A stretch of 64,000 nt of DNA from an uncultured Victivallales bacterium (GTDB lineage: Bacteria > Verrucomicrobiota > Lentisphaeria > Victivallales > UBA1829): the NCBI GenBank assembly GCA_944390795.1, contig CALXRI010000008.1, positions 1 to 64,000 on the forward strand, read 5' to 3'. A program made the translations under genes and the position numbers. How positions within the stretch are numbered: the stretch's first letter is position 1; every line of letters starts with the position of its first letter. Under the pieces are notes generated by a model. It did no database searches, was not told where the DNA came from, and worked only from the letters and a program-made list of their open reading frames with translations. Below, one piece after another: positions 1 to 57,786 of the stretch.

Positions 1-70
1 CGCGGTCCAGCTGCGCAAGCTGGTCGCCGGAGGCGAAATCCCTAATACCGCGCATGCTTGCATCGCGGTA
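1..70 (+). repeat. Hairpin-string repeat, copy A (cut by window edge)
   Basis: Three inverted repeats follow one another: 6-bp arms at 7-12/18-23 (ccagct/agctgg), 5-bp arms at 24-28/32-36 with a 3-base loop, and 7-bp arms at 46-52/64-70 (taccgcg/cgcggta) around an inner atgc/gcat pair. Bases 1-26 are an exact reverse complement of 57663-57688, and the same module order recurs at 4464-4580 and, reversed, at 30661-30746. No coding potential is visible here. The copy probably begins before the window. Confidence 0.75.
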
Positions 71-127
71 ATTTATTGCAGCCGCATTCAGGCTTAATGC
101 AGGCATGATACCATTCTACGGTCTCAG

Positions 128-4313: not shown

Positions 4314-4463
4314 GATTTCCGCGGGGAGGGAAAAACAAAAAACTTCCGGAAAAACGCCACATCAGTTCCGTTCCGCATTGCATTGCTTTCCGCGGAAAAA
4401 GCATCCTTCTGAAAAAAAGACCGTCTGCTGAACATTTTGATTCAAAAAGATCAGTTTCATACA

Positions 4464-4580
4464 GCGATGCTCCGCATCGCAAAAATGTTTCGTGCAGGAC
4501 TTCCGGTCCTGCCGCAGTTCAGCTGCGCAAGCGGGGCGCCGCAGGCGAAATTCCCGATACCGCGTATGTTTGCGTCGCGC
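4464..4580 (+). repeat. Hairpin-string repeat, copy B
   Basis: In order: 7-bp arms gcgatgc/gcatcgc at 4464-4470/4474-4480 with loop tcc; 7-bp arms gcaggac/gtcctgc at 4494-4500/4506-4512; a decayed agct hairpin near 4520-4532; 4-bp arms cgcc/ggcg near 4537-4547 with loop gca; and a decayed accgcg/cgcg pair at 4558-4577. The order and linkers match copy A and the reversed copies C and D. Confidence 0.75.
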
Positions 4581-4738
4581 CAATTCACTTCCGAACTGCA
4601 ACAAGAGGGAATGCCATGAAGCAATGCATGAATCCGGGGAAACAGCATTCCGCCTGAAAAAAGTCATTGTCCAGTTGATCTCGCCGCGGACAAGATGATC
4701 GGGTGCGGCATCCTCCGCGAAAACGTATCTGATCCAGC

Positions 4739-30660: not shown

Positions 30661-30746
30661 CCGCCTGCGGCGTCCAGCTTCCGCAGCCGGACCGCGCAAG
30701 GGCCTCCCGGCCCTTGTCCCCGGGAAAAATGCGCTGCATTTTTCCG
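30661..30746 (-). repeat. Hairpin-string repeat, copy D (reverse orientation)
   Basis: On the minus strand the order is: 10-bp arms ggaaaaatgc/gcatttttcc (30723-30732/30736-30745, 3-base loop); 8-bp arms caagggcc/ggcccttg (30697-30704/30709-30716); then a core at 30674-30696 matching copies A and C at 21 of 23 positions; then 4-bp cgcc/ggcg arms at 30662-30672 around a 3-base loop. The same module order is found in copies A, B and C. Confidence 0.75.
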
Positions 30747-55169: not shown

Positions 55170-57398
55170 ATGATAAAAGCCGCTGCGAAACACGACGCCT
55201 TTGATTCCGAAGCTTACCGGACGCTTTTTGAGGGACGGATCGCCGATCCGCACGCCATACTCGGAATGCATACCGAAAAAGACGGGATTGCCGTTCGGGT
55301 ATACGACCCTGTTGCGGAGCAGATCATCCTGATCGCGGACGGGAAAAGATTCCCGATGGAAAAAGTCGCGGACGCGGGACTCTTCGTCAAAACCTTCCCC
55401 GGGAAGAGGAAGCATTTCGATTATGTCGTGGAAAAACATTTCGCCGACGGCGGAACTTTCACCTCCGAGGATCCCTATCACTTCCTTCCCGGCGTCGGAG
55501 AAATGGACATGTATCTCTTCAACTCCGGCGAACACCACCGGATTTACGAGGTCATGGGCGCACATCCGCACCGCATGGGAGAGGTCGAGGGCGTTCTCTT
55601 CGCGGTGTGGGCGCCGAATGCCGAACGGGTCTCCGTGATCGGCGACTTCAACTGCTGGGACGGACGGCGAAACATGATGCGCCTCATGGGATCCTCCGGC
55701 ATCTGGGAACTCTTCATTCCGTCGCTTCAACCAGGCGACCTCTACAAGTATGAAATCCGCACGAAGAACGGCGACATACTCGTCAAGCTCGATCCCTACG
55801 CGCAGCGCACCGAACTGCGCCCGCACAATGCGGGAAGAGTCCCCGCCGCGTCACCGTACGCATGGACCGACGGAGACTGGATGGCGCGCCGCCCGAAATG
55901 CGATATTTTGAATTCGCCCGTCAATATTTATGAAGTGCATCTGGCCTCCTGGCGCGGACCGGGACTGCGTCAGCTGGATCCGGAAAAGAAGGACGATTTC
56001 CACAACTACCGAGAACTGGCGCATGCGCTTGCCGACTACATTCTGGAGATGGGCTACACCCATATCGAGCTTCTGCCGGTCTGCGAACATCCGCTCGATC
56101 AGTCATGGGGATATCAGGTAACGGGATTCTATGCGCCGACCGCGCGCTACGGCTCGCCGGAGGATTTCGCCTATTTCGTCGATTACATGCATGAAAAGGG
56201 CATCGGAGTGATTCTCGACTGGGTTCCCGCGCATTTTCCGAAGGACTCCTTCGGACTCGGGCGCTTCGACGGAACCGCGCTTTACGAGCATGCCGATCCG
56301 CGGCAGGGCGAACATCGCGACTGGGGAACCTACATCTTCAACTTCGGACGCAACGAGGTGAAAAACTTCCTGATCGGGAGCGCCCTCTACTGGTTCGACA
56401 AATTCCATGTGGACGGTCTGCGGGTGGACGCCGTGGCCTCCATGCTTTATCTGAACTACTCGCGAAACGAGGGAGAGTGGATCCCCAACAAATACGGCGG
56501 CAACGAGAATCTGGATGCGATTGCGTTTCTCCGGCGTCTCAACGAGCTGGCGCACGAGCTCTTTCCGGGGATCATGATGGTGGCGGAGGAGTCCACCGCC
56601 TGGCCGGGGGTCTCGCGTCCCGCCTATCTCGGCGGACTCGGATTCACCTTCAAGTGGAACATGGGCTGGATGCACGACACGCTGGAATATTTTGCGCTGG
56701 ATCCGATCTACCGCAGCTACAGTCACGGCAAGATCACCTTTTCGATGCTTTACGCCTTCACGGAAAACTTCATTCTGCCGCTGAGTCATGACGAAGTGGT
56801 TCACGGGAAGAAATCGCTGCTCGACAAGATGCCGGGAGACTATCAGCAGAAGTTTGCGAATCTGCGCGCTCTCTTTTCCTACATGATCACGCATCCGGGC
56901 AAAAAACTTCTTTTCATGGGCGGCGAGTTCGGACAGTGGATTGAATGGAACAGCAATGCGGGGCTTGACTGGATGCTGCTGGATTATCCGCAGCATGCGG
57001 CGATGAAGCGTCTTTCCGCCGATCTGAACCGTTTTTACCGGGAGAATCCGGCGCTCTGGGAGGTGGACTTCACCGATGCCGGCTTCCAGTGGCTGGACGG
57101 CGGAGATTTCCGGCAGTCGATTCTTTCCTATATCCGCTGGAACAGGAAACATACGGAGGCTGTTGTCGTGATTCTGAATCTCACGCCGGTGGTTCGGAAC
57201 GATTACGTGACCGGAGTGCCGTTTGCCGGGGAGTGGGTTGAGGTGTTCAACTCGGATGCAGCGGAATACGGCGGAACGGGATTGACCAATCCCGGAGTGA
57301 TGAAAACCGAGGATGGGCTTTATCACGGACAGAAACAGCATATCCGTCTGCGGCTGCCGTGGCTGGGCGCGGTATTCCTCAAGAAAATAAAAAAATAA
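55170..57398 (+). CDS. glgB: 1,4-alpha-glucan branching enzyme
   Basis: From the ATG at 55170 (AGGAGG just upstream) the protein has 742 residues. An N-terminal CBM48-type domain pair (about 15-220, with F-A-V-W-A-P-N-A) is followed by the GH13 barrel. The latter has the nucleophile in G-L-R-V-D-A-V (Asp near 419), the acid Glu in M-V-A-E-E-S-T (near 473) and the transition-state H-D-E in L-S-H-D-E-V-V. It makes alpha-1,6 branches in glycogen. No other glg gene is adjacent, so glycogen genes are scattered. Confidence 0.96.
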
Positions 57399-57497
57399 AA
57401 ATTAATCAGAAATATAAAAAAGACGGCAGGCCTGCCTGCCGGGTGCAGGTGTCTCACACCTGCCGCGGAGGGTGAGGGCGCGGAGCCCTCACGTTCT
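57399..57497 (+). repeat. Triple-hairpin unit, first copy
   Basis: The unit has an A/T-rich head (attaatca...atataaa) and three perfect hairpins: cggcagg/cctgccg (57424-57430/57435-57441), gcaggtgt/acacctgc (57445-57452/57456-57463, loop ctc) and gtgagggc/gccctcac (57472-57479/57485-57492). It differs from the second copy at only two positions. Confidence 0.9.
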
Positions 57498-57517
57498 AAA
57501 AAAAAATAAAAAACAGG

Positions 57518-57616
57518 AAATTAATCAAAAATATAAAAAAGACGGCAGGCTTGCCTGCCGGGTGCAGGTGTCTCACACCTGCCGCGGAGGGTGAGGGCGC
57601 GGAGCCCTCACGTTCT
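57518..57616 (+). repeat. Triple-hairpin unit, second copy
   Basis: This is the same 99-base unit 119 bases downstream, with substitutions at 57528 and 57550 only. All paired arms except one position of the first hairpin are unchanged. Confidence 0.9.
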
Positions 57617-57649
57617 TGAAAGTTTTTCAGTTGCTTCGCAATTTTTTGT

Positions 57650-57735
57650 TTCGTGCTGCGCACGACCAGCTTGCGCAGCTGGACCGCGGCAGGACTGAGA
57701 GTCCTGCACGAATCATAATTTGCGTTGCAAATTAT
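57650..57735 (-). repeat. Hairpin-string repeat, copy C (reverse orientation)
   Basis: On the minus strand the order is ataatttgc/gcaaattat (9 bp, 3-base loop), gcaggact/agtcctgc (8 bp, 3-base loop), ccagct/agctgg (6 bp) and tcgtgc/gcacga (6 bp, 3-base loop), followed by aaac. The core 57663-57688 is the exact reverse complement of bases 1-26. Confidence 0.8.
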
Positions 57736-57786
57736 TTTTTCAGTTGCGCAGCTTCGCGCGCAGGAAATAACTTTTCAGGAGGTAAA

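Follow-up and report, generated by a model that had tools for sequence, protein, structure and literature searches.

Order-wide hairpin strings in the Victivallales and a gene-free, IS200/IS605-type element with naturally varied targeting

The repeats described here, first seen in a stretch of 64,000 nucleotides from an uncultured Victivallales bacterium (the window), are very probably built in two layers: a hairpin-string unit spread through gut bacteria of the order and, within one genus, a non-autonomous single-strand-DNA element of the IS200/IS605 kind, termed type I. The order-wide unit, H2 - CGCGGTCC - H3 - H4 - AAAT, keeps its fold while its arms change, and in one lineage of the genus, type I, the unit is carried between left and right ends of the IS200/IS605 kind. 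Both type I ends bear a subterminal hairpin, immediately preceded on its 5' side by a four-base guide, N'ATA. On the left this guide pairs with a target TTNAT, insertion takes place 3' of this target, which remains unduplicated as the left flank, and on the right it pairs with the element's own right cleavage site. A Y1 (HUH) transposase may act in trans, the intermediate may be a circular single strand, and the strings may have some role at the 3' ends of genes.

A preliminary description had placed four copies of one dispersed family at 1-70, 4464-4580, 30661-30746 and 57650-57735 of the window, and a 21-base core pattern matches at exactly these four places, where 0.03 matches were expected from shuffles. 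The dispersed family stands, though its four members are of two types: those at 1-77 and 4464-4580 are one element type with a right-end hairpin (type I), and those at 30661 and 57650 are older strings without type I ends. The core, which had been set apart from the hairpins, is shared by the copies but is itself a hairpin (CCAGCT-GCGCA-AGCTGG), so that the string consists of hairpins throughout. The letters C and D had also been swapped relative to their own coordinates, TCGTGC/GCACGA lying at 57650-57735 and CAAGGGCC/GGCCCTTG at 30661-30746. The window starts at base 1 of contig C8 and its first copy is thus incomplete: at 1-77 (forward strand) lies a young type I element whose 5' part is missing, with predicted H3 at 7-23, H4 at 24-36 and right-end hairpin at 47-69, a right guide AATA at 44-47, and the right cleavage site TTTAT at 72-76, followed by T at 77; its right end is identical at 17 places in the genome. 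The second copy is an old, decayed type I element at 4442-4588 (forward strand) with three core mismatches and a broken H3. Its target TTGAT (4437-4441) lies in the flank, followed by the guide CATA (4458-4461), H1 (4464-4480), H2 (4494-4512), H3 (about 4519-4535), H4 (4537-4547), the right guide GATA (4556-4559), a hairpin from 4560 and the end TTCAC (4584-4588). Both guides pair with their sites, the left guide C with the target G and, on the right, the guide G with C; in the genus-mate G002, no copy aligned at the same place. The two older strings, both on the reverse strand, are common to G002 and G003. The string at 30662-30745 has hairpins GGAAAAATGC/GCATTTTTCC (30723-30745), CAAGGGCC/GGCCCTTG (30697-30716), H3 (30674-30690) and H4 (30662-30672), with one extra unit in G002. 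The other, at 57651-57735, has ATAATTTGC/GCAAATTAT (57715-57735), GCAGGACT/AGTCCTGC (57689-57707), H3 (57666-57682) and H4 TCGTGC/GCACGA (57651-57665), and differs among the species in its number of tandem units. It adjoins two tandem 119-bp units with three further hairpins each (57381-57618, forward strand), and the number of these units is higher in G002 and lower in G003, so that the array expands and shrinks. Compared with shuffles, the window copies have fold z-scores of -2.0 to -4.8 (RNA) and -2.8 to -5.8 (DNA), and a full young copy (L030) has -5.2 and -6.2.

Further copies exist well beyond the window: the window's 3.44-Mb genome (G000) contains 87 core matches at up to 3 mismatches, against 0 for the reversed control, and its genus-mates contain about 98 (G002), 161 (G003) and two weak ones (G001). 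Three layouts occur in G000. Type I, about 150 bp, runs from TTNAT through T(TC)CAAAAAAA..., H1, H2, H3, H4, AAATCCC and the right-end hairpin to TTNATT; type II comprises long strings with the second half inverted and two branched modules; and type III has AAAAATGC and CAAGGGYC hairpins, then the same H3-H4. The branched modules of type II (L021, L024, L115 and L126 in G000), which lie in opposite orientation and read GGCGGCGGTTCC...GACGAGAAGC-GAA-GCTTCGAGAGCCGCC and CGCCCGGAGCTCTCGAACTTTTC...GCTCCGGGCG, resemble three-way junctions with tandem G-A and have no Rfam match at the cut-off. Across the order, the layout is an H2 hairpin, CGCGGTCC, an H3 hairpin, an H4 hairpin and AAAT, and a covariance model of H2-H3 finds matches in 34 of 137 genomes from five families. 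In a 289-genome sample of the phylum, 12 genomes had a match, all of them inside the order and none outside. The matches in other families retain CGCGGTCC-AGCGGCGGAACGCTGG-TCG...CGAAAT, and their H2 and H4 arms are very different yet paired. The strings are an order-wide, REP/BIME-like hairpin family without a match at the Rfam cut-off, and a literature search found no description of Victivallales repeats. The exact repeat (L063, L064, L076, L082 and L087) is also present in a public MAG from roe deer rectum under the title Ruminococcus sp., which is probably a mislabelled Victivallales genome.

The matched differences between arms had been taken as compensatory substitutions, such that the fold and not the sequence is kept. 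Across modules and families the arms do covary strongly, with the fold kept: in an alignment of 53 distinct H2-H3 sequences drawn from more than one family, fitted to the model with relatedness left in and hence leaning towards structure, 92.7% of pair cells are paired versus 71.1% when shuffled, and 124 cells have changed on both sides versus 30 when shuffled and 9-25 with partners slid. A change on one side only, mostly to G-U, is found in just 7 cells. Module counts within the genus are 60 TA and 64 CG against 2 mixed for CAAGGGYC/GRCCCTTG, 82 and 40 against 4 mixed for TCGYGC/GCRCGA, 90 and 86 against 26 mixed for AARAATGC/GCATTYTT, and 50 and 64 against 0 mixed for AATTTGC versus AAATTGC, while the states of neighbouring hairpins mix freely. 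Arm covariation is thus a feature of the order-wide comparison, but does not extend to the 122 distinct homologous type I copies, in which no pair in H1-H4 covaries beyond a tree-simulated null (G-test; best p = 0.03, uncorrected) and H2 is unpaired in about half. Nor are all differences between sites compensatory, some being swaps of whole units. At 57650, H4 is TCGTGC/GCACGA in G000 and TCGCGC/GCGCGA in the G002 and G003 orthologues; since G002 has the other H4 form in a neighbouring unit, this T-A versus C-G difference is explained most simply by deletion between tandem units.

It is a serious possibility, falling somewhat short of an even chance, that the matched arms result from a mutation process, by template switching between arms or unequal exchange of whole units, rather than from selection on the fold. 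Such a process would fit the near absence of one-arm-changed intermediates in several modules (for example, 124 matched versus 2 mixed), the gains and losses of units at both old window sites, and the decay of type I stems without compensation. However, the H2 and H4 arms differ across families where the linkers and H3 are kept, and the free mixing of neighbouring hairpin states also argues against it. The rarity of G-U steps suggests pairing at the DNA level, or mutation of both arms, rather than selection on RNA.

The strings sit outside genes, mostly at gene 3' ends. With genes predicted by codon scoring, 0 of 57 copies fell inside a predicted gene, and the 48 copies with both neighbours called were distributed as 19 convergent, 28 in same-direction gaps and 1 divergent, compared with 12, 41 and 17 for 70 other gaps. 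In the window, the element at 1-77 is followed by genes for a GntR-type regulator and a PIG-L deacetylase, and that ending at 4588 by a cytidylate-kinase-like gene; the 30661 string is flanked by genes for pyruvate:ferredoxin oxidoreductase and for a protein of the histidine phosphatase family; and the whole 57381-57735 array fills the gap between a glgB-like (glycogen branching enzyme) gene ending at 57398 and a nickel-insertion-protein gene starting at 57775. Because a terminator's T-tail supplies TTTAT, some young type I copies (L012, L013 and L030) lie directly behind the T-tails of such hairpins, in one case following a tRNA gene. These surroundings raise the alternative that the strings are structured RNA elements of 3' untranslated regions, acting as terminators or mRNA stabilisers, whose fold is under RNA selection and whose mobility is incidental. 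The bias to gene 3' ends with avoidance of divergent promoters, folds stabler than shuffles, the covariation of arms and the placement of young copies behind terminator hairpins all agree with this alternative, which we nevertheless consider unlikely. The 7 one-side against 124 both-side changes would be unusual for RNA under selection, and the guide/target rule set out below is explained by DNA and not by RNA. Further, a search of Rfam 15 returned at the gathering score two tRNAs alone in the window and nothing for five type I/II loci, where MIR5638 scored 55 bits against a cut-off of 500 and the rest were weak.

Type I is a non-autonomous, gene-free mobile element of about 150 bp, a mobility that the preliminary description had missed, along with the guide pairing at its site of insertion. 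Near-identical copies point to a separate burst in each copy-rich species, with exact right ends at 17 places in G000 and 24 in G002. Empty sites place its insertion 3' of TTNAT; the target is not duplicated, and the element has no terminal inverted repeats. These sites were found in genus-mates for five insertions, with TTNATT retained on the left: L030 and L013 of G000 have empty sites in G002 (TTTATT), and L263, L231 and L238 of G002 have them in G000. For L263, the sequence is GTTCATTTTCC when empty; when filled, it runs TTCATT, element TCAAAAAAA...GGTAATTTATT, TTCATC, such that the target remains in place to the left, the element supplies the right end itself and there is no duplication. 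The ends, CAAAAAAATTTAGG... and ...GCGGTAATTTATT, do not form inverted repeats, an 11-bp pairing lying inside the ends; H1 is about 20 bp in from the left, and on the right a few bases separate the hairpin from the cleavage site. In the young families the right end is constant and the left varies, with TTTATT on the right and TTTATT, TTCATT or TTGATT on the left in G002, and with TTGATT on the left and TTCATT on the right in G003; young copies of G000 have TTTATT on both sides. From G000 alone, a TTTATT target duplication was the first reading, and it was rejected on the ends in G002 and G003 and three more empty sites. One young copy (L147, contig C3 of G000), with left guide AATA, lies next to an old copy and departs from the constant right end in being flanked by TTCATT both left and right, perhaps through exchange with this neighbour; such tandem young and old neighbours arise because old 3' ends offer TTNAT. 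That type I is instead a conventional DDE-transposase MITE, or a bcr1-like site-specific-recombination element, duplicating TTTATT at insertion is highly improbable, for the TTTATT on both sides in G000, the TTCATT on both sides of one copy and the association of bcr1 with TTTAT repeats (PMC6542083) are outweighed by flanks that differ systematically between left and right in G002 and G003, by empty sites in which the left TTCATT is kept and the right is TTTATT, and by the lack of terminal inverted repeats.

At both type I ends, the subterminal hairpin is preceded by an N'ATA guide directly 5' of CC-GCG, and the N' base of this guide pairs with the N of TTNAT. In G000, AATA goes with TTTAT at both ends. 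In G002, two left subfamilies coexist in one genome, GATA with TTCAT (10 copies) and AATA with TTTAT (7), and the right end has AATA with TTTAT. In G003, the left end has CATA with TTGAT and the right GATA with TTCAT. Among 69 distinct left flanks, 51 pair by Watson-Crick and 5 by G-T, where 23.4 were expected and 0 of 20,000 permutations reached 51; the other 13 do neither. The left target pre-exists wherever the empty site can be read, and so each left flank tests the choice of target separately. The 73 right flanks comprise 58 Watson-Crick and 13 G-T pairs (71 of 73 pair), counts that are not independent since right ends are inherited with the element. Cross-end controls, which set the left guide against the right end and the right guide against the left target, were at chance (26 versus 23.5 and 27 versus 25.0). 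Guide and target thus covary at each end, in company with the copies, defined ends, empty sites and absence of target duplication. This pattern is the IS608/ISDra2 rule; the full IS608 pairing scheme is applied to type I here, and its outline agrees with the published account. Type I has been retargeted naturally between species, the target changing with the guide base.

The assemblies of G000, G002 and G003 yielded no intact Y1 transposase, the Y1 remnants being a truncated IS200-like transposase in G000, its only one (L031, C3:76606-76746), one decayed IS200-like gene in G002 and none in G003. Across the order, Y1 genes occur in 20 of the 34 string-bearing genomes and in 47 of the 103 others, so that their presence does not track that of the strings, and the IS200-like elements of G001 and G005 have ends unlike those of type I. 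A linked RAYT or IS200 gene was rejected on the truncated gene in G000, the different ends in relatives and the lack of an order-wide association, and the linked transposase or binding protein for which the preliminary description suggested a search was not seen around the window copies. No longer, autonomous version with the same right end was found in the genome, where every right-end match but one falls together with a core. However, an autonomous element in several copies could have been lost from the assemblies, given that young copies are places where MAG contigs break, and a transposon with related palindromes may be missing owing to the incompleteness of the assemblies. A bolder proposal, which we advance tentatively and regard as rather doubtful, is that undescribed order-wide DNA hairpin strings, their arms rewritten pairwise with hardly any intermediates, became in one genus the cargo of a gene-free single-strand-DNA element that would retarget itself through a change of one guide base and whose transposase would be non-resident or of a new kind.

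Type I is a PATE-like, gene-free element of the IS200/IS605 type with naturally varied targeting. The PATEs of Haloquadratum carry palindromes near their ends, lack both terminal inverted repeats and a gene, and do not duplicate their target (PMC3119063). Type I shares these features, together with a short target, a length too small for a gene and palindromes that lie farther in at the 5' end, and it too has moved although intact IS200 transposases are scarce, the same puzzle as in Haloquadratum. Unlike PATEs, type I is bacterial, its interior is a conserved hairpin string that occurs elsewhere without type I ends, its ends match no IS seen in the analysis, and its targets vary with the guide base from one sister species to another; the relation of PATE palindromes to an IS605-type transposon has no counterpart found here, as the IS200-like ends of G001 and G005 differ. 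Among IS200/IS605 elements, IS608 inserts 3' of TTAC, which is kept in the left flank, and has guides 5' of its subterminal hairpins, and the ISDra2 target is TTGAT (PMC5934647), that of the G003 type I copies. Type I likewise inserts 3' of a short target that pairs with a guide and stays as the left flank, and it has guides 5' of subterminal hairpins at both ends, but it has neither tnpA nor tnpB, and thus encodes no Y1 transposase TnpA, and its copy-rich genomes lack an intact Y1 gene. The strings resemble GTAG- and CGTC-tagged REPs and BIMEs in being many-copy extragenic palindromes, downstream of genes and in clusters, and CGTC REPs are likewise without a transposase (PMC3733652). However, the strings carry neither tag, GTAG and CGTC being absent from both strands of the young type I sequence, and consist of several different hairpins in fixed order. 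Finally, bcr1 and its like in the Bacillus cereus group, compared here by description, are also about 150 bp, intergenic and furnished with stem-loops and terminal TTTAT, but in type I the guide determines the N of TTNAT, and TTTAT is one of the resulting forms.

What is known of guide pairing in the IS200/IS605 family comes from a small number of laboratory elements, and the pairing has been re-engineered. Type I provides natural retargeting, in three sister species and in two subfamilies within one genome, with insertions traced to empty sites, and the guide rule thereby becomes testable on natural data, with short elements of this kind flagged as programmable inserters. The order-wide strings provide a clean system in which to separate selection on the fold from a mutation process as the origin of paired arm changes, and they are also suited to the question of which transposase moves gene-free elements in genomes that have none of their own.
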